Shown: positions 54,516-64,000, counted from the first letter of the stretch. The stretch is 64,000 nt of DNA from Ignavibacteria bacterium (GCA_013177855.1 JABLYA010000001.1:543231-607230); one strand, 5' to 3'. Notes: generated by a model not told the origin, from the letters alone. Numbers and translations are program-made.

Positions 54516-55790
54516 CTAAACTTTAGAATTTGTATTCAAAATTTTTTCTGCAACGAGTTTTCCACTTTTGACTGCACTTTCAATCGTGGAGGGAAAATTT
54601 GTATCTGTAAAATCTCCAGCGATAAATAAATTCGGATAATCTGTTTCAGTCTTTACTCTGTGTTTTATTGATGAAAAATCAGAAATAAATGTTGCTCGTT
54701 TTTCTTTGATGATTTTGAAATAAACAATTTTTCTGTTTTTATATTCAGGAAAATAATTTAGAAATTCCGTCAGAAAGATTTCCTTCAAAGTTTGATCATT
54801 TAAGTGAACGAATTCTTCAGCGTTACTTTTTGTTAATGTAATGTGAGTTTTATGAAAGAATGCCCAATGGACTGGTGAATTCCATAATGCAAAGAATTTT
54901 ATTTCTCCATTGTAATTTTCAAAAATTATGTGGGCATTGATTATTGATTGAAAGCTAAGTTTGATTTCTTTTTCATTCATCAATCGGAGATATGAATGAT
55001 AGGGAACAGCAAGAATGAAATAATCGGCAAAATGTTTTTCTCCATGATTATCAATTGCACAATGAACTCGACTATTCTGAAACTCGAGTTTAGTAATTGA
55101 GCAGTTCTTAATGATTTCAACATTTTTATCAAATAAAAAATTTTCCGCTGGAATGAGGAAACTTTCGAAGAAAGATTTCTCTGGGATAATTAAACGAGCA
55201 TTCTTAAAATCTTCAAAAAACATTTTTTTTAAGATGAAAATGAAAACCTTTGCTGAAGCTTTTTCGATTGGTGAGTTCATTGTAGATTCAACGAAAAGCT
55301 GCCAGAAGTTATTAATTAGATTTTCACTTTGCTGATGAAACTTAAGAAGATCTATGACTGATAAATTTTCAAAGACTTTCTCTTCATATTTTCTGATACG
55401 GACAAGAAAATTCAACAATCTGAATTTATCTTTTATTTCAAGATTTCTGAATTTCAAAAGATTTATAAAATCTTCAAATGAATTTGAATATGTCAGTGAC
55501 CATTCTTTTAGTTTTTTATCTCGAAATTTTACTGCGAATTTATTTTGAACTAAGAAATTTTTTTTCACATTAATTTTGTCTAACAACTCCAAAGTCTCGC
55601 GATAACCCGAAATCAAAAGATGTTGACCATTATCAAACCACAAATTCAAATCTTTCTCGAAGTAAGATTTAAATCTACCGCCGAGTTGTGGAGAACTTTC
55701 AAATAATCTAATCTTTAAATTTTTTTCTGAGAGATTAATTGCCGCCGATATTCCAGCGAGTCCACCACCGATTATCAATACACTCTTCAT
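54516..55790 (-). CDS. hpnE: Hydroxysqualene dehydroxylase HpnE (FAD-dependent)
   Basis: A 424-residue flavoprotein. LIIGGGLAGISAAINLSEK is the FAD dinucleotide loop, RLFESSPQLGGRF follows as in amine-oxidase-like enzymes, and the C-terminal NLFIAGDFTDTNFPSTIESAVKSG is the second flavin block. Size and partner genes identify HpnE, which reduces hydroxysqualene to squalene. It overlaps hpnD by four bases. It is the last gene of the unit; a gene-free stretch of 176 bases, without a clear hairpin, separates it from the convergent hydrolase gene. Confidence 0.9.
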   Translation of the reverse strand: MKSVLIIGGGLAGISAAINLSEKNLKIRLFESSPQLGGRFKSYFEKDLNLWFDNGQHLLISGYRETLELLDKINVKKNFLVQNKFAVKFRDKKLKEWSLTYSNSFEDFINLLKFRNLEIKDKFRLLNFLVRIRKYEEKVFENLSVIDLLKFHQQSENLINNFWQLFVESTMNSPIEKASAKVFIFILKKMFFEDFKNARLIIPEKSFFESFLIPAENFLFDKNVEIIKNCSITKLEFQNSRVHCAIDNHGEKHFADYFILAVPYHSYLRLMNEKEIKLSFQSIINAHIIFENYNGEIKFFALWNSPVHWAFFHKTHITLTKSNAEEFVHLNDQTLKEIFLTEFLNYFPEYKNRKIVYFKIIKEKRATFISDFSSIKHRVKTETDYPNLFIAGDFTDTNFPSTIESAVKSGKLVAEKILNTNSKV

Positions 55791-56635
55791 TTGTTGAGCA
55801 AGTGATATTTAACATAATTTTTAATTGTAATTCTCATCTTTTCGAATGAATTCAGATTATTATTTTTTGAATAAACATCATAAGAATTCTTTTCAATTTT
55901 CTTTAAAATCTTGTAATAGATTTCCTGCATTGCTCTTCCCATAGCCAGAACTTTGTGATCTTCTGGATGAAAATACTCATTCGCTTTTTGATAAAAATAT
56001 TCAGCCCTGTGAGCTTCAAACTTCATCAATTCAATGAAATTATCGTTATAAATGTTTTGCTTTAATTCTTCATTTGAATAATTAAATCTTTTTAAATCTT
56101 CCTGAGGCAAATATATGCGGTCATTTTCTGCATCAATTTTTACATCTCTTAAAATATTGGTCAATTGCATTGCGATACCAAGATTATAAGCATAATCTCT
56201 ACTTTGAGGATTTTTATATCCGAAAAGTTCAATGGACATTAATCCAATGGTTGAAGCAACACGATAACAATAAACAATTAATTCATCGAAAGTCTCATAG
56301 CGATTTTTCGTCAAATCCATTTTAACACCCTCAATCAAATCCACAAAAGGTTCAACGGACATTTTAAAATTTTTTATTACCGAAGCGACTGAGTTCAATA
56401 ATTCAAATTTAGAATTAGAAGAAAGAGCTTTCTGAAATTCTTTTTTCCATTCTTCAATGCGAATAAATTTCTCTTCATTTGAAATTTCTGAATTATCAAC
56501 AATATCATCAGTAACCCGACAAAAGGCATAAATTGAATGCATCGCTTTTCTTTTATTTTCAGGAAGAAAAAGAAAAGTGTAGTAGAAACTGCTTTTAGCT
56601 TGTTTTGTGATTATATCCTCGAGATTCTTAGCCAT
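55787..56635 (-). CDS. hpnD: Presqualene diphosphate synthase HpnD
   Basis: A 282-residue trans-prenyltransferase. The first aspartate-rich motif is CRVTDDIVDN (Asp43, Asp44, Asp47) and the second NILRDVKIDAENDRIYLPQ, both as in the phytoene/squalene synthase family. HpnD couples two farnesyl diphosphates to presqualene diphosphate. It overlaps hpnC by eight bases and hpnE by four, so the order of genes follows transcription as C, D, E. The assignment as D versus C rests on sequence style (SSFYYTFLFLP after the start) and order. Confidence 0.92.
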   Translation of the reverse strand: MAKNLEDIITKQAKSSFYYTFLFLPENKRKAMHSIYAFCRVTDDIVDNSEISNEEKFIRIEEWKKEFQKALSSNSKFELLNSVASVIKNFKMSVEPFVDLIEGVKMDLTKNRYETFDELIVYCYRVASTIGLMSIELFGYKNPQSRDYAYNLGIAMQLTNILRDVKIDAENDRIYLPQEDLKRFNYSNEELKQNIYNDNFIELMKFEAHRAEYFYQKANEYFHPEDHKVLAMGRAMQEIYYKILKKIEKNSYDVYSKNNNLNSFEKMRITIKNYVKYHLLNK

Positions 56636-57488
56636 TAAAAATTACTCGTGTAATAATTTTCAACCAGTCAAGTTTACTTAAGGTTGGTCTAAATCGTATT
56701 GTATCAAAATCAGCTTTTTTAATTAATGAAAGAATCTTTAGTCCCCCTTCAATTGTTAATTTAATTTCTATTCTGAATAAACCTGATAAGTAAGGGAGTA
56801 AATTCTTTCCTTCATTAAACAAATCCTCAGTAAAACTTATTGCTTCATTAAGAGTTGTCCTCAATCTATCATCAACAGAATTATTCTTAACAAAATCAAT
56901 CAAGTCAGCATTTGAAAGATTATTTTTTGCAAGAAGAGACTGAGGAAGATAAAAACGATTCCTTTTTATATCGATCTTCAAATCCTGAAAAAAGTTTGTC
57001 AATTGCAAAGCTGAACATATCTGGTCAGAGTAAAAAAATGCTCTATCATTTTTAACTTCAAATAATTCAAGCAGAATTCGTCCAATAGGATTTGCTGATT
57101 TAGAACAGTAATTAAGCAAATCATTCCAATCTTGGTAAAAGTTTTTCTCATTGTCTTGAATAAAAGCATCAATCAAGTCAATAAAATTTTTTATAGTAAG
57201 TGAATTCGTTTCAATGGTATCAAAAACAGCTGGTAAATGCGGGTAATTTTTATCGTGAGTTTTTTGAATTAATAAATTTTTGTACTCTTTTAATTTATTT
57301 ATTCTTATTTGTGGTGAAATATTTCCTTCATCCGCAATATCATCAGCAATTCGAGCAAACGCATAAACTGCTGCTATGAATTTTCTTTTGCTTTTGGGGA
57401 TTAGAAGAGATGCAACTGGAAAATTCTCGTAATGTTTTTTTGCTAGTTCAATGCAAAAGTTATAAGAGCTCTCTAAGATTTGATTCAT
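56628..57488 (-). CDS. hpnC: Hydroxysqualene synthase HpnC
   Basis: A 286-residue relative of HpnD. HYENFPVASLLIPKSKRK and FARIADDIADEGN (Asp49, Asp50, Asp53) are typical of HpnC, and QLTNFFQDLKIDIKRNRFYLPQ is the second metal-binding block. HpnC converts presqualene diphosphate to hydroxysqualene. The gene begins 17 bases downstream of tRNA-Leu and has no obvious promoter of its own, so it may be transcribed from the tRNA promoter. Confidence 0.92.
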   Translation of the reverse strand: MNQILESSYNFCIELAKKHYENFPVASLLIPKSKRKFIAAVYAFARIADDIADEGNISPQIRINKLKEYKNLLIQKTHDKNYPHLPAVFDTIETNSLTIKNFIDLIDAFIQDNEKNFYQDWNDLLNYCSKSANPIGRILLELFEVKNDRAFFYSDQICSALQLTNFFQDLKIDIKRNRFYLPQSLLAKNNLSNADLIDFVKNNSVDDRLRTTLNEAISFTEDLFNEGKNLLPYLSGLFRIEIKLTIEGGLKILSLIKKADFDTIRFRPTLSKLDWLKIITRVIFNG

Positions 57489-57719: not shown

Positions 57720-58661
57720 TCAACTCACACAGCTTTCTTTTAATTCCACAATTCCTTTACTACAGTCAATTTCAGCCAATGCACCAATTGGAATTGTATT
57801 CTTCGACTTGATGTGACCATGAATTAAGTTATATACAACAGGCTTTTTCAGATTTGAAAAGTAATCACTTACCACATCGTTTAGTGATAGCGATTTTTTC
57901 GATGGATCAGTTTCTTCGCAATCAGTGAAGTTACACAGAACGATACCTGCTACTTTATCAAATATCTTAGCAAGTCTCATTTGTGCAAAGAAACGATCAA
58001 TACGGTAAGGTTTTTCTTCAACTTCTTCCAAGAACAAGATCGACTTATCGAATTTTGGCAAATAAGGAGTTCCTATTAATGAACAAACTAAAGACAGGTT
58101 TCCACCAAGCAATCTACCTTTCGCTTTACCTTTTGTAATACAGGAGATTTTTTCTCCTTGAGGATTTTTGAATTTACCAAAAGGTTTTGTAGAGTTTATC
58201 ATTCGCCAAAAATTTTCTTCAGTAAATTTATCCACTTCTCCTGAAAAATCTACCGCAGCCATTGGACCAGCAAAAGTAATTAAACCTGTCTTTTGAAAAA
58301 TTGCAAGTTGAAGAACTGTTATATCACTGTAGCCCACAAAAATCTTTGGATTTTTTTTGATCAGATTAAAATTAATTTTATCAAGAAATCTTATTGAACC
58401 ATACCCGCCTCGAACGCAAAAAATTGCTTTTACTTCCTTATTTGAAAACATCGAATGAAAATCTTCCAATCGTTCTTCGTCAGTTCCTGCAAGGTAACCC
58501 CTGACTTTACCGACATTCTTACCAACTATTACTTTGTAACCAAGTTTTTCAAAATAAACTACTGCTTGATTAATTTTTTCCAAGTTATCGGGAGTAGATG
58601 CAGGTGAAATCAATCCGATCAAATCCCCTTTTTGAAGATGTTTAGGTTTAATTACTTTCAT
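57720..58661 (-). CDS. S66 family LD-carboxypeptidase (LdcA/MccF-like)
   Basis: About 313 residues. The ATG at 58661 has GGAGAAAAG upstream and opens MKVIKPKHLQKGDLIGLISP, so the 17-codon extension in the open frame is left out. CVRGGYGSIRFLD and VGYSDIT with the nucleophile Ser112 are S66 hallmarks; GGNLSLVCSLIGTPY and HGHIKSKNTIPIG give the C-terminal Glu/His region. Family members trim the terminal D-Ala of peptidoglycan tetrapeptides in the cytoplasm or inactivate microcin C-type peptide-nucleotides. It is 16 bases downstream of the YaiO-like gene and ends the operon. Confidence 0.92.
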   Translation of the reverse strand: MKVIKPKHLQKGDLIGLISPASTPDNLEKINQAVVYFEKLGYKVIVGKNVGKVRGYLAGTDEERLEDFHSMFSNKEVKAIFCVRGGYGSIRFLDKINFNLIKKNPKIFVGYSDITVLQLAIFQKTGLITFAGPMAAVDFSGEVDKFTEENFWRMINSTKPFGKFKNPQGEKISCITKGKAKGRLLGGNLSLVCSLIGTPYLPKFDKSILFLEEVEEKPYRIDRFFAQMRLAKIFDKVAGIVLCNFTDCEETDPSKKSLSLNDVVSDYFSNLKKPVVYNLIHGHIKSKNTIPIGALAEIDCSKGIVELKESCVS

Positions 58662-58677
58662 CTTTTCTCCTTTTTGA

Positions 58678-59508
58678 TTAAAAATAAAATGGGGTTTTAA
58701 TTCCAAAAACAAAATAATTAATTCTATACGAATTAAAATTCGCTCTCTGATACTGAATTGCTGCTACAAAATTTTTGTAAAAATTATAATTCACCTGAAC
58801 GGAATAATTTGAGATTTGAGTTTCAAGTTGATTATAGAATACCATTAAATCTGGATTATAGAAAAATGATCTCGAGCCAATTGATACACTCCCTTTAATT
58901 GAAAGTTCATAAAAAGGAAAATATAAAAGGGATAATTGCAGTGATGTTTGTTTTCGACCATCTGAAATGAGATGTGTGGAAAGAATTGTGTTTATAAGAA
59001 ACTTATAATGCGGATAATAATCTGTCCTTAAATAAATCTGCTTTGCATTAAGATTATTATTTCCCGTTTGTTTGAAATAAGAAAACCCAGCGCCGTAATA
59101 AAAAGGATATACACCAAGAACTATTTCAGGTGAAATTAAATAGCCATCATCAACCAAATTATTAGAGATGTAATCATCTTTATAATTACCATCAATTTTC
59201 AGTAAATCAAGTTTAAGTTTCATTTTTAATTCACTTAACCAGTAATGAATTCCTCCGCTAAAATTATTTTGATAATATTCCCACAGCAAGTTTCTTGTTT
59301 TATTTTTGATACTAATTCTATCGTAACCTAAAACCAGGTAATCATAATTATTCCAGCTGAAGGTGCTAAACACTGAATACTGCTGCGAATTTGTCCGATC
59401 CGAATAATCTCCATAAGTGAAATAAATTGAAGGTTGAAAAAAGAAACTTCCTTGAGAGAATAATGGAATAGAATAATATAAAGTTAAGAGCACAATTTTA
59501 TTTAACAA
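58678..59508 (-). CDS. YaiO-like outer-membrane beta-barrel protein
   Basis: A 276-residue protein with a short signal peptide (ending IPLFSQG) and a whole-length pattern of alternating amphipathic strands (YSVFSTFSWNNYDYLVLGYDRI, FSGGIHYWLSELKMKLKLDL), ending in the aromatic FGIKTPFYF as barrel proteins do. Family YaiO is an outer-membrane barrel of unknown function. The start lies 11 bases inside the TPR gene, indicating tight coupling. Assignment is by overall style and genomic partner, so moderate. Confidence 0.72.
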   Translation of the reverse strand: MLNKIVLLTLYYSIPLFSQGSFFFQPSIYFTYGDYSDRTNSQQYSVFSTFSWNNYDYLVLGYDRISIKNKTRNLLWEYYQNNFSGGIHYWLSELKMKLKLDLLKIDGNYKDDYISNNLVDDGYLISPEIVLGVYPFYYGAGFSYFKQTGNNNLNAKQIYLRTDYYPHYKFLINTILSTHLISDGRKQTSLQLSLLYFPFYELSIKGSVSIGSRSFFYNPDLMVFYNQLETQISNYSVQVNYNFYKNFVAAIQYQRANFNSYRINYFVFGIKTPFYF

Positions 59509-60139
59509 GTTTCAGTCCCTCCAATGCCGATTTATCATTTTCACTTATCATCAAAGTATTGATAAAATGAGACTTCGCTTCAGATTTCTTGTTGAGATAA
59601 AAATAAGTCCAGCCAAGATAAAGATTTGCTTCGTAATCACTTGGATATAAATCATAGACTTTTTTTAAGAAATTTTCGGCTTTTGAATATTCCCTCCTGT
59701 TGAAGTAGAGTTGTCCAAGTCGAAGATTTGCAGTATAATTATTTGGATCAAGAGTAAGAACCTTTTGATAAATTTTCTCAATCTCATTCCATTTTTCCTG
59801 CCCAGAAAGAGGTAATGTTAAACCAAGATATGGTTCAATTGATTTTTCTTGAGTAAGTCGAATTGCTTTTTGATAATAATTGATTGATTGATCATATTTC
59901 TTCTGAAGATAATAAAGATAACCAAGCCTGAGATTTAAGAGATAATCATTCTCATTATTTTTATAAACATTAAGTAATGCATCTGTTGCTTTCTGATAAT
60001 TCCCCTTAAACGCTTCATTAATTGAGGTATTAAATGCTGAGATTTTCTCATCCTTTTGTTGAGAAAAAACTACATTTGTTAAAATAATTGTGCTTATAAC
60101 AATTGTAAAAATGCCCAAATAATAAATTATTTTTTTCAT
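59498..60139 (-). CDS. TPR protein, exported
   Basis: A 213-residue protein with a signal peptide (residues 1-27, NVVFSQQ) and about five TPR units (NDYLLNLRLGYLYYLQKKYDQ, NNYTANLRLGQLYFNRREYS, SDYEANLYLGWTYFYLNKKS). There is no catalytic domain, so it is likely a periplasmic adaptor. Its ATG overlaps the stop of the urea-transporter fusion gene (ATGA) and its 3' end overlaps the YaiO-like gene, placing it as bridge between an inner-membrane and an outer-membrane protein. YaiO proteins of some bacteria carry such a TPR domain in the same chain. Confidence 0.85.
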   Translation of the reverse strand: MKKIIYYLGIFTIVISTIILTNVVFSQQKDEKISAFNTSINEAFKGNYQKATDALLNVYKNNENDYLLNLRLGYLYYLQKKYDQSINYYQKAIRLTQEKSIEPYLGLTLPLSGQEKWNEIEKIYQKVLTLDPNNYTANLRLGQLYFNRREYSKAENFLKKVYDLYPSDYEANLYLGWTYFYLNKKSEAKSHFINTLMISENDKSALEGLKLVK

Positions 60140-62277
60140 ACTTCTTCCTCCGTTAAAAATTTAAACTCACATTTGATTTGATCATTCTGGATGCATTTAA
60201 AAGATTTGATGTAACCATCTTTTTCAATTTCAATCATATAGTCCCGATATAATTTTACGAATTTAAATATACCTCTGCCTTTAAATTCAATTTTATTAAT
60301 GAAAAGATAATTCCCGCTAATATCTTCCTTTGTTTCAAAATTACCTCTTGCTTCAAAAGGATTTGAGATTAAAATCATTATATCACTTAAAATCATAACT
60401 GGTTTACTTGCAATCATAGAAACAGGATAGGAATCGCTCCATCTTAAATTTAGCATTGTTGAAAAAGGAATTTGAATTGCTGCAAGATAAAAATGATAAA
60501 GTGCATCTTTTTTCTTTCCAATATAACTTGTGAAATAAAAAACTTCTTCATCATTAAAGAAAGTTGCAATAGAACCAGTTGACGATTCAATGTAGGGAAT
60601 ATTGTATGGGTCAATTTTTACTTCCCAGAATTCGGATATTATCTTTCCGTCTTTTTCATATTTAAGATAGAATTTATCACCATATTCAAAATTAAATGCT
60701 TCTTTAACTTTAGTGTTTATCTCAAGATTCTGAACTTTATCATCCTTTTGCGGATAATCATAAGATTTTAATTGCCAAACATTTCCATAACGAACTAGAA
60801 AATGACCAAAAGGAAATTGAATTGTTGGTGCGCCAATCTTGTCATTTTTCTGAAATTGAAAATGAATATGTGGTTCAGGTGATCTTCCACTGTTTCCGCA
60901 ATTGCCTAATATATCACCTTTTTGGATTTCGTCCCCTTCTTTAACTCTAATCGAATGTTTTTTCAGATGTGATATTGCTGAAAATAAACCTTGACCGTGA
61001 TCGATCACAACTGTATTACCCCAATTCTGCTTAATGTTTATCTTTCCGATTTCATTCTCGTCAATTCCATCAACTACTTTTGCAACTTTTCCTTTATAAG
61101 GAGAAATAACCGGCAAACCATAACAGTGATAATCTTCTGAATTCAATCCTGAACCACTATAAGTTTTTTCATCTTCATCTTTAATCACAAAGTCAAAAGC
61201 AAATCTCCAATCTTTTTTGTGAGTATATTCACCATCAACAGCCTGAGAAACATCCCACTCCCCGTTGAAAGGCAATGATGCATTAATGTATTTGTATTTT
61301 TCAAATCTTGCTTTTTGATTTTTGTGATAATAATAATTTTCTTCAGGGGATCCGGGTTTGAAATAAAGAAGGACAACTTCTCCTGCTTTCTCTCTAAATT
61401 TCAAAGCATAAATGATGAGAAAAACAGTAAAGTTAAAAGGTAAAACAAAAACACTAAGATTTACTTTCTGGAAAATCGATTGAAGAATTATTGTTAGGAC
61501 ACTTGAAATGGTCACTCCGATAAAACTCAAGAAAATAGATCTATTCGATGGAATTATCAAAGAACCGCCAAGTGCGATTGAAACAATTATTGCATTGATT
61601 GTAATTAATATGCCAAGCGGAGATAAAATTTGAATTGAAAATAAATCCATTAATATAACGGAAAATGCAAAACCTAATATAGATTGTATGAACATTATCC
61701 GGGAGAAAATCAAAATTGCAATAACGATTATAATTCCAGATATAATTGAACTTTGTAGAACTAAATAACCAAAATCCTGAAAGAAAAGGTTGATCGTAGC
61801 CGGCAAAATGTTTATTGTCTCATAAGTTTGAATATTCGCTGTGCTTATTTCAAATATTTTTAAAGAGCGATTAAAAATGACAAAAAGGTAAAATGAGATC
61901 AAGAAAGGTAAACTTAGCCCTGGAAGATTGAAAGCAAAGGCAAAATAATTTTCAATGGATGTGTTTATAAAAAAATTAATCAGTAAGAATAAAACTAGTA
62001 TTGGGATGAAATACTCATTTGGTTTATAAAAAAAACTTAATGCAGCGCCAAATAATAATCCATTAAATCCATAGAAACCTTCACGAACTTTCTTTTCTTC
62101 ATAATTAAAAATTAAAGCTATTAAGTTGGTGATTAGAACTGAAAAGAGAATGATTGAACCGTGGACAGGAGAAATAAAAGTTGCAGCCAGAACTAATGCA
62201 CCGAACCATCTTCTGTTTGAAAAGAAAATTTGCGAATAACTGAAAAGAGTTGAATCAATTAGGATTGATAGATTCAT
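60136..62277 (-). CDS. Urea-transporter-like membrane domain fused to an M23 peptidase domain
   Basis: A 713-residue fusion. Residues ~20-295 form about ten membrane segments with the urea-transporter look: REGFYGFNGLLFGAAL (~65-80), NLPGLSLPFLIS (~117), and an internal second repeat near 215-250. Residues ~340-480 are an M23/LytM domain with metal ligands H353, D362 and H472 and catalytic-site H437 and H470 (SHLK; EPHIHF). A ~230-residue C-terminal beta-rich tail follows. The peptidase should face the periplasm. It overlaps the TPR gene and touches the upstream PLP gene, which ends at the same base. The transported solute is unknown; the pore may not carry urea. Confidence 0.85.
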   Translation of the reverse strand: MNLSILIDSTLFSYSQIFFSNRRWFGALVLAATFISPVHGSIILFSVLITNLIALIFNYEEKKVREGFYGFNGLLFGAALSFFYKPNEYFIPILVLFLLINFFINTSIENYFAFAFNLPGLSLPFLISFYLFVIFNRSLKIFEISTANIQTYETINILPATINLFFQDFGYLVLQSSIISGIIIVIAILIFSRIMFIQSILGFAFSVILMDLFSIQILSPLGILITINAIIVSIALGGSLIIPSNRSIFLSFIGVTISSVLTIILQSIFQKVNLSVFVLPFNFTVFLIIYALKFREKAGEVVLLYFKPGSPEENYYYHKNQKARFEKYKYINASLPFNGEWDVSQAVDGEYTHKKDWRFAFDFVIKDEDEKTYSGSGLNSEDYHCYGLPVISPYKGKVAKVVDGIDENEIGKINIKQNWGNTVVIDHGQGLFSAISHLKKHSIRVKEGDEIQKGDILGNCGNSGRSPEPHIHFQFQKNDKIGAPTIQFPFGHFLVRYGNVWQLKSYDYPQKDDKVQNLEINTKVKEAFNFEYGDKFYLKYEKDGKIISEFWEVKIDPYNIPYIESSTGSIATFFNDEEVFYFTSYIGKKKDALYHFYLAAIQIPFSTMLNLRWSDSYPVSMIASKPVMILSDIMILISNPFEARGNFETKEDISGNYLFINKIEFKGRGIFKFVKLYRDYMIEIEKDGYIKSFKCIQNDQIKCEFKFLTEEEV

Positions 62278-63629
62278 TATTGTTTGAGTTTTTCTGGTAT
62301 TCTCTCGAGCTGAATGATAGTTTCTAAATTCTCTTTTTCACGAACGATTTCAACTTTTCCATCTTCCATAATCATTACAACTCTTGGCCTCAAATTAATG
62401 AACTGCATCCATTGAGTCATATTATAGGCACCAACATTATGGAAAATGATTTGTTTACCCACAGAGATAGGTGGTAAATAAACACCATCTCTCAATAAAT
62501 CAATATTCATACATAAATTACCATAAATTGCACTCTCATCTCTTACTTCTCCATAAAATTCAGTCGTTGAAATACGATGTTTATACCAGAAACTTGTAAA
62601 TAATAAATTAACTCCAGCATCTACGATAATGGCTTGTTTACCATTACTCAAGCGCTTATTGGCAACAACGCTTGTAATTAAATATCCAGCTTCATCAATT
62701 AAAGCCCTTCCAGTTTCAAGAATTAAAAGCGGTAACTCATCCTGTTTTAATCCATGCTCTAAAATTCCCGAAGTAATTGCATCAGCATAATCTTCAAATG
62801 AAGGAACCACAACAGAAGCATCAAGATAATAAGCTTGAAGGGTGTTTTTGCTCGCAAATCCACCACCGATATCAATATAATCTAATTGATGATTATACTC
62901 ATATTTAACTCGCTTATATAAATCCATTAACTTCGAAGCAGCAACTCGATAAGCATCAGCCGTAAGAATGTAAGTTCCAATGTGACAGTGCAATCCAACG
63001 AGTTTAAGTTTTTCTGAAATCATTATTCTTCTTATCGCATCATAAGCTTCGCCATTTTCATAATTCAATCCAAATCTATCCCATTTAGGATAAATTCCCG
63101 TATCCATATTTACTCGTATCGCAACTTTAGCTGTTTTATTAATTTCTTCTGTGATCTCAATTAATTTATATAGCTCATCAAAATGATCAATGTGTATTAG
63201 AGCTCCGTCATTAATTGCTTTTATTAAAGCTGAATCTGGTTTGTGTGGACCATTAAAAATTATTTTTGAACCGCTCACTCCAAGTAATTTTGCTTTATCA
63301 TATTCAAATTCAGAAACAACCTCTGCCCATGAACCTTCCTGATGAAAGATTAAACAAACAGCATTTAGATAATTTGTTTTATAAGACCAGGCAAATTGAA
63401 CTTTGGGATATCGAGTTTTAAAAATTCTTAAAGCTTTTCTATAAGTCTGTCTGATTGTTTTTTCTGATAAAACAAATAATGGTGAGCCAAAATCTTCAAC
63501 TAACTTTTCAATAGATACACCGTCAATATTTTCTAAAACTGTTAATGCCCCTGCTTTACCAAATTTACTAATAAAACCAGTCTTCTGTCTTGTAATGATT
63601 GGTTTTGAGTAAGGTTTCTTATTGCCCAT
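62277..63629 (-). CDS. PLP fold-III decarboxylase (diaminopimelate/ornithine decarboxylase-like)
   Basis: A 450-residue alanine-racemase-fold enzyme. FAWSYKTNYL holds the PLP lysine (Lys84), GLHCHIGT and IDIGGGFASK bind the PLP phosphate, LETGRALIDEAG replaces the usual EPGR, and GNLCMNIDLL is the C-terminal Cys/Asp substrate segment. It is clearly a relative of LysA but with altered motifs and a long N-terminal extension, so its substrate may be another diamino or carboxylated amino acid. It sits between an ATP-grasp gene and the transporter-peptidase fusion, both touching it. Confidence 0.85.
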   Translation of the reverse strand: MGNKKPYSKPIITRQKTGFISKFGKAGALTVLENIDGVSIEKLVEDFGSPLFVLSEKTIRQTYRKALRIFKTRYPKVQFAWSYKTNYLNAVCLIFHQEGSWAEVVSEFEYDKAKLLGVSGSKIIFNGPHKPDSALIKAINDGALIHIDHFDELYKLIEITEEINKTAKVAIRVNMDTGIYPKWDRFGLNYENGEAYDAIRRIMISEKLKLVGLHCHIGTYILTADAYRVAASKLMDLYKRVKYEYNHQLDYIDIGGGFASKNTLQAYYLDASVVVPSFEDYADAITSGILEHGLKQDELPLLILETGRALIDEAGYLITSVVANKRLSNGKQAIIVDAGVNLLFTSFWYKHRISTTEFYGEVRDESAIYGNLCMNIDLLRDGVYLPPISVGKQIIFHNVGAYNMTQWMQFINLRPRVVMIMEDGKVEIVREKENLETIIQLERIPEKLKQ

Positions 63630-64000
63630 TATAATTCTCCATTAATTGAAATTTTTTCGTATGTTTTTATATCTGTAATTAGATCAATTGAGCATCGCAC
63701 AAACATTTTACCTACTTCATAATCTTCGTAAGGTTTGACACTTTCACCAAGAGCAAGTTTAACAAGCAAATATGGAAGATTTTGACCTGCTGCCTGAGTT
63801 AAGTATACCCATGCGGGCAATCGCGAGTTTATTTCAAGTAAATAATACTTTCCGTCATTCCGTGATTTTAAAATTTCAAGTTCAAGTCCACTTCGCCATT
63901 TCAATGCTCTAATCACTTTGTGCGTCATCTCAATTAATTTTTCATCTTTGATTGTTACTCCACTCCAGCCTTTTCCTTTATCAGTAATAAACAACTTTCT
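63629..64000 (-). CDS. C-terminal fragment of an ATP-grasp ligase
   Basis: The frame runs open to the right edge; the TTG at 63994 is probably internal, since the codons before it (AGA AAG) keep the frame. About 123 residues are visible. WRSGLELEILKSRNDGKYYLLEINSR contains the ELEI...LEIN metal-binding Glu and Asn pattern of ATP-grasp enzymes, followed by LPAWVYLTQAAGQNLPYLLVKLALGE as in carbamoyl-phosphate-synthase-type and carboxylate-amine ligases. It shares one base with the start of the decarboxylase gene. The substrate cannot be inferred from the fragment. Confidence 0.8.
   Translation of the reverse strand, partial: RKLFITDKGKGWSGVTIKDEKLIEMTHKVIRALKWRSGLELEILKSRNDGKYYLLEINSRLPAWVYLTQAAGQNLPYLLVKLALGESVKPYEDYEVGKMFVRCSIDLITDIKTYEKISINGEL

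Follow-up and report, generated by a model that had tools for sequence, protein, structure and literature searches.

A conserved Bacteroidota operon joins a ligase and a decarboxylase to a urea-channel fold fused to an M23 peptidase domain

Gene content and conservation of the operon

The window analysed here, a stretch of 64,000 nucleotides (G000:C1:543231-607230) from the 3.66 Mb genome of an Ignavibacteria bacterium, carries at positions 57720-64000 six open reading frames of an envelope operon, all on the minus strand (Table 1). In the direction of transcription they encode an ATP-grasp ligase, a pyridoxal phosphate (PLP)-dependent decarboxylase, a fusion of a urea transporter (UT) domain with an M23 peptidase domain (UT-M23), a tetratricopeptide repeat (TPR) protein, an outer-membrane barrel and an S66 LD-carboxypeptidase family protein. 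The ATP-grasp/PLP and PLP/UT-M23 pairs overlap by 1 base each, UT-M23/TPR by 4 and TPR/barrel by 11, while a gap of 16 bases separates the barrel from the S66 gene, provided that the latter starts at an internal ATG (window 58661) and not at an upstream TTG. These are the six genes and spacings given by an initial annotation made from the sequence alone, and our recomputation returned the same values. Its family names were confirmed by Pfam for the S66 N- and C-terminal domains, TPR, UT, M23, both ornithine/diaminopimelate (DAP)/arginine decarboxylase domains and ATP-grasp, whereas the name YaiO, given to the barrel, is supported by no library model. The window's end truncates the ATP-grasp gene, whose complete product has 344 residues. 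The genes upstream of position 64000, which the initial annotation had proposed to obtain, comprise the rest of this gene and, 1 base upstream of it, the true first gene of the operon, encoding an 80-residue PqqD-like protein.

The same gene order recurs in dozens of genomes, which rules out chance adjacency. In a phylum sample of 395 Bacteroidota genomes, 44 contained a protein exceeding the UT cut-off. The ATP-grasp gene, searched for with a protein model at E <= 1e-30, was present in 34, precisely the genomes that combine UT with M23, as a fusion in 33 and split in 1; the other 10 UT-positive genomes encode only ordinary UT proteins of ~300 residues. PLP and ATP-grasp genes adjoin every readable UT-M23 locus in constant order, with a PqqD-like gene ahead. 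A search of a class-wide sample of 391 genomes located the operon in 62 genomes of 42 genera, and none of the six genomes in the window's family lacks it. As an independent test set, 20 newly fetched loci had PqqD in 19 and PLP in 19 cases; where the contig continued, UT-M23 followed in 17 of 17 and TPR beyond it in 13 of 14. Pairwise distances between ATP-grasp, PLP enzyme and UT-M23 correlate with one another (rho 0.86-0.93), and more weakly with those of TPR (rho ~0.8) and PqqD (~0.6). All named relatives returned by the UT-M23 search belong to Ignavibacteria or Ignavibacteriales, and when the operon was sought beyond the phylum, on plasmids, only distant ATP-grasp and M23 matches came up. 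The genes are patchily distributed and inherited together; their core consists of PqqD, ATP-grasp, PLP decarboxylase and UT-M23, followed by TPR and barrel in either order: in the window's family, as in many relatives of the class, TPR precedes the barrel, while elsewhere a barrel-like protein, at times with its own TPR start, comes before TPR. Adjacency confined to a single genome, which the initial annotation had named as grounds for giving up its idea of one gene set spanning cytoplasm to outer membrane, did not occur, and the conserved neighbourhood supports that idea. The S66 gene, counted there as a member of the set, adjoins the operon only in the window's family (f1) and was rejected as a core component.

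Several loci depart from this arrangement. In family f20 (L075, L144), UT-M23 has ~530 residues and lacks the C-terminal beta domain, the barrel lies upstream of PqqD and TPR is not nearby; loci of f66 (L138, L139) share the upstream arrangement, and their contigs end inside the operon. One contig, G165:C1, carries two copies with identical ATP-grasp scores, in its first 5 kb (L117) and at 3735 kb (L069); the two contig ends probably overlap in a circular assembly.

Table 1. Genes of the operon and its surroundings in the window's genome
Feature	Position in window	Strand	Remarks
PqqD-like gene, 80 aa	L002:9896-10138 (= window 64665-64907 if extended)		First in operon
ATP-grasp ligase, C-terminal part in window	63629..64000	-	Complete gene 344 aa, L002:8860-9894 (= window 63629-64663); Pfam
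PLP-dependent decarboxylase, alanine-racemase fold, 450 aa	62277..63629	-	FigC/FslC-like, not the genome's LysA
UT-M23 fusion, 713 aa	60136..62277	-	UT ~1-320, M23 ~332-490, C-terminal beta domain ~490-713
TPR protein, signal-like start, 213 aa	59498..60139	-	Predicted periplasmic
Outer-membrane barrel, 276 aa	58678..59508	-	Predicted 14 strands, OmpG-like fold; initially named YaiO
S66 LD-carboxypeptidase family gene	57720..58661	-	Accessory; attached in the window's own family (f1) only

The channel-peptidase fusion

For UT-M23, an unusual product of the operon, the predicted model is confident (predicted local distance difference test, pLDDT, 91). Its UT domain (PF03253) scores 147 bits against a cut-off of 25, and residues 1-320 of the model superpose on dvUT with a template modelling (TM) score of 0.83 by target (Foldseek E 3e-16). 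The UT part comprises the full 10-helix fold through the usual C-terminal motif, with recognisable LPxxTxPF regions. Fold, LPxxTxPF regions and orientation are shared with dvUT and UT-B of the UT/SLC14 family, from which UT-M23 differs by its altered urea-site residues and by the fused M23 and beta domains. Roles in the urea site of dvUT have been assigned to Q24, T130, E187 and T294 (PMC5311045). Among 39 UT-M23 sequences, the Q24 position retains Gln in 32 and the T130 position holds Ser in 37, while Thr is kept at the T294 position in only 3 and neither Glu nor Gln occurs at that of E187 (0/39). In ordinary UT proteins, by contrast, all four positions are kept in 10 of 10, with Glu or Gln at E187. 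Profile and fold place the domain among the urea transporters, but the urea-binding residues of both halves are not retained; judging from these substitutions, the channel has lost much of its urea site, including the residues of the second half.

The M23 domain (PF01551) reaches 63 bits (cut-off 28.7), and the middle of the fusion model superposes on LytM domains. It shares with LytM-type M23 metallopeptidases this Pfam and fold match as well as five His/Asp residues, H353, D362, H437, H470 and H472, which are invariant in 39/39 sequences. Unlike these enzymes, it forms one protein with a channel, is associated with biosynthetic enzymes and is predicted to be cytoplasmic. Counted over the loops of the model, Lys+Arg average 10.3 and Asp+Glu 3.4 on the side of the C-terminus, against 2.4 and 6.2 on the opposite side; the Lys+Arg excess on the C-terminal side is found in all 39 sequences, and the orientation is identical in 10 ordinary UT proteins of the phylum. 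As the UT part is complete, its N and C termini should lie on the same side, and by the positive-inside rule the excess of Lys+Arg on the C-terminal side would therefore place the M23 and beta domains in the cytoplasm. This predicted location of the peptidase, in the cytoplasm and not in the periplasm, had been missed by the initial annotation, which placed the channel with its peptidase domain in the inner membrane. A further hint comes from genome G064 (L116:9944-12198), where UT and M23 are encoded by separate frames that overlap in a run of T: the M23 frame lacks a signal peptide, an independent pointer to a cytoplasmic M23. The gene may be truly split here, or the T run may cause slippage or reflect an error in sequencing.

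A putative C385-C460 disulfide was considered as proof of a periplasmic M23 domain and rejected, the two cysteines being lost independently of each other. Outside the phylum, M23 proteins of the same subfamily, with at most 40% identity over the domain and without a classical signal peptide, are encoded on haloarchaeal plasmids (L119:3040-3966, L121:2767-3630). Haloarchaea are not known to have murein.

Enzymes, envelope proteins and neighbouring genes

Against the LysA model (TIGR01048) the PLP enzyme scores 231 bits, while the genome's separate LysA reaches 504 bits. A housekeeping role as LysA was rejected on the basis of the score below the cut-off (297.9), the separate LysA and the replaced DAP-binding residues. 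The best solved relative is FigC/FslC (E 3e-87), although the FigC model (NF041039) is matched with only 248 bits at a cut-off of 500. FigC, SbnH, AcsE, MccE and BtrK form a subfamily that decarboxylates amino acids attached to another group (PMC7857480). With FigC/FslC the PLP enzyme shares the PLP lysine, the catalytic Cys, the adjacent Met (39/39; an acidic position in LysA) and Thr at the position of the DAP-binding Arg (38/39). It differs in that H357 and R387, the proposed citryl contacts of FigC, are Ile and Gln in 39/39 sequences, an invariant Trp/Gln set standing in their place, and in that the operon contains no synthetase for NRPS-independent siderophores (NIS). Given the C-M-x-x-D motif and the Thr as in FigC, with the citryl contacts replaced, the substrate is likely a conjugated amino acid, and probably a non-citryl one.

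The conserved catalytic residues of the ATP-grasp protein are likewise invariant (39/39). The protein is similar to carbamoyl-phosphate-synthase-like ligases and, with borderline significance, to PylC, and matches the Ter-linked pathway profile PF15632 with 50.7 bits (cut-off 29.1); no Ter gene was named among the scanned neighbours, in which no search aimed at Ter families was made. PvsA and BtrJ are the ATP-grasp partners in the vibrioferrin and butirosin pathways. The operon shares with these pathways the logic of an ATP-grasp-fold ligase beside a decarboxylase for conjugated amino acids (BtrK: PMC7857480), but it has neither a carrier protein nor a NIS synthetase and instead adds the channel-peptidase and envelope components. 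A ligase-decarboxylase biosynthetic operon is of a known kind; the transport-peptidase part is unusual. The PqqD-like protein exceeds the cut-off of PF05402, the family of recognition elements for ribosomally synthesized and post-translationally modified peptides (RiPPs), with 43 bits against 23.4, but remains under every NCBIfam PqqD cut-off, its best matches there being lasso-peptide and HPr-rel-A PqqD proteins. These enzymes are compatible with the small amino-acid or peptide compound envisaged in the initial annotation, which knew of no described function for the set. We found no paper with this gene combination in the open full text searched, an absence that is not proof, and neither urea channels nor M23 are mentioned in the papers dealing with graspetides and RiPP recognition elements.

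For the outer components, export signals were called with a simple hydrophobicity rule, which recognised signal-like starts in 36 of 37 TPR proteins, 21 of 22 barrels and practically none of the cytoplasmic enzymes. The AlphaFold model of the barrel (pLDDT 91) shows 14 long strands; among solved structures, those of OmpG are its best Foldseek matches (TM 0.67 by query, at most 0.73 by target). The strand number and fold are shared with OmpG, but identity is ~10%, so that the likeness is one of fold only. The barrel is predicted to be an OmpG-like outer-membrane pore. It has no convincing Pfam match, and among the NCBIfam matches of 18 barrel members, considered up to E 1, there was neither YaiO nor another barrel model.

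In the window's family, a tRNA-Arg/His/Glu cluster (L002:10187-10428) with tRNA-Glu nearest to the operon lies directly upstream of PqqD and ends ~48 bases short of its start, so that transcription from a tRNA promoter may extend into the operon. Promoter-like sites numbered 30, against 37.5 expected from shuffles, using a sigma-70 consensus that fits Bacteroidota poorly, and 4 terminators were found where shuffles predict 3.7. Downstream of S66 lie tRNA-Leu and a squalene-synthase-type HpnC/HpnD pair (window 55787-57488), in which HpnC exceeds its NCBIfam cut-off and HpnD falls slightly below. A second S66 gene is located near the true lysA of the window's genome (G000:C1:1049144-1051994). 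In one lineage of the class, the operon is followed by the anhydromuramic acid kinase AnmK (L006:11625-12818, L007, L088, L099), 5, 12 and 47 bases after the barrel in L006, L007 and L088, and identified by Pfam in L099. This AnmK is part of a wider housekeeping block, which in L083, L085 and L095 comes after the operon with AnmK missing. Upstream of ATP-grasp, mostly right before PqqD, 16 of 61 loci encode a secreted FG-GAP protein with a type IX secretion system (T9SS) tail (L082:5218-6057 and homologues); in f20 and f66, a larger FG-GAP-looking protein lies between PqqD and ATP-grasp (L138:4496-6202).

A putative export route and its alternatives

Our preferred, still tentative, reading is that the cassette synthesizes a small amide or amine, cleaves its conjugate where the channel opens and lets the product out of the cell. 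The cytoplasmic ATP-grasp ligase, aided by the PqqD-like peptide-binding protein, would couple a carboxylate to the amine of an amino acid, and the FigC/BtrK-type PLP enzyme would strip the alpha-carboxylate from the conjugate. Held at the channel's cytoplasmic mouth, the M23 domain would hydrolyse an amide bond of this conjugate, such that the ligated group serves as a handle that is removed on export. The small fragment would exit through the channel and subsequently through the OmpG-like pore, OmpG being cited here as a small-solute pore, with TPR as a putative periplasmic adaptor. The intact catalytic residues of ligase, decarboxylase and M23 domain support such a pathway, as do the exact co-occurrence of ATP-grasp with UT-M23, the constant gene order, the correlated distances, the kinship of the PLP enzyme with FigC, the charge topology, the lost urea residues and the likeness of the barrel to OmpG. 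The main argument for a coupling of hydrolysis and transport is that one protein combines an intact hydrolase with a channel whose filter has changed. That UT-M23 is itself a vectorial peptidase-channel, in which a cytoplasmic zinc peptidase on a repurposed urea channel splits the conjugate and exports the fragment, is the more doubtful part of the proposal. Several observations speak against this picture: the channel is passive, so that sequence does not favour export over import; standalone M23 relatives with signal peptide or lipobox exist; UT-M23 is shortened by its C-terminal domain in the f20 loci; the G064 operon has no adjoining TPR or barrel; and a search upstream for a precursor peptide of PqqD gave only tRNA-derived or close-relative matches, a distant gene being possible.

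The main rival assumes the opposite direction. Murein peptides or other amides would be taken up via OmpG-like pore and channel, M23 and, in the window's family, S66 would trim them, the PLP enzyme would decarboxylate the peptide-bound diamino acid, and the ligase would reuse the product. This salvage route, which we regard as rather unlikely, draws on the S66 gene behind the operon in f1 and its counterpart near lysA, on AnmK next door in another lineage, S66 and AnmK both being murein-recycling families, and on the murein cross-bridge cleavage typical of M23 enzymes. However, the S66/AnmK link was noticed post hoc, each gene lies beside the operon in one lineage only, and AnmK comes with a block that also occurs there without it; moreover, muropeptides are far bigger than urea, and the closest M23 relatives include those of the haloarchaea, which are not known to have murein. 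If the M23 domain were instead periplasmic, the whole set could be a complex for remodelling or modifying the cell wall, as the signal peptide or lipobox on some standalone relatives (L017, L018, L019), the usual murein target of M23 enzymes and the location of TPR and barrel outside the inner membrane would suggest. The charge topology of all 39 sequences, which matches that of ordinary UTs, the 10-helix fold with both ends on one side and the split M23 frame of G064 without signal peptide make this very improbable, and the loss of the two cysteines independently of each other voids the disulfide argument.

Two further alternatives concern the product. In a RiPP-type cluster, PqqD would bind either a ribosomal precursor from another locus or the secreted FG-GAP protein for modification by the ATP-grasp and PLP enzymes, and M23 would cut the leader. 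The Pfam match of PqqD, with lasso-peptide and HPr-rel-A PqqDs as its nearest NCBIfam models, and the T9SS protein beside it at 16 of 61 loci fit this idea, but the NCBIfam matches all stay below their cut-offs, the secreted protein is missing from most loci, no conserved small frame lies upstream of PqqD, where f1 has its tRNA cluster, and a peptide could not leave through a channel of the urea type; we therefore consider it improbable. A siderophore pathway is suggested by FigC as the nearest relative of the PLP enzyme and by SbnH and AcsE, which are siderophore enzymes as well (PMC7857480). Against this, the H357/R387 positions are Ile/Gln throughout, and neither a NIS synthetase nor a TonB receptor is in the conserved core, such a receptor being found upstream of L071 only, leaving the siderophore pathway highly improbable.

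The operon is carried by about one-sixth of the genomes in the class sample and one-twelfth of those in the phylum sample. If the proposed handle-removing export route is true, the coupling of export to the removal of a handle would be of a new kind, spread over many Bacteroidota, and urea-channel folds would be able to let out other metabolites. M23 peptidases would then also act as cytoplasmic metabolic enzymes apart from the cell wall, and there would be a new small molecule to be isolated.

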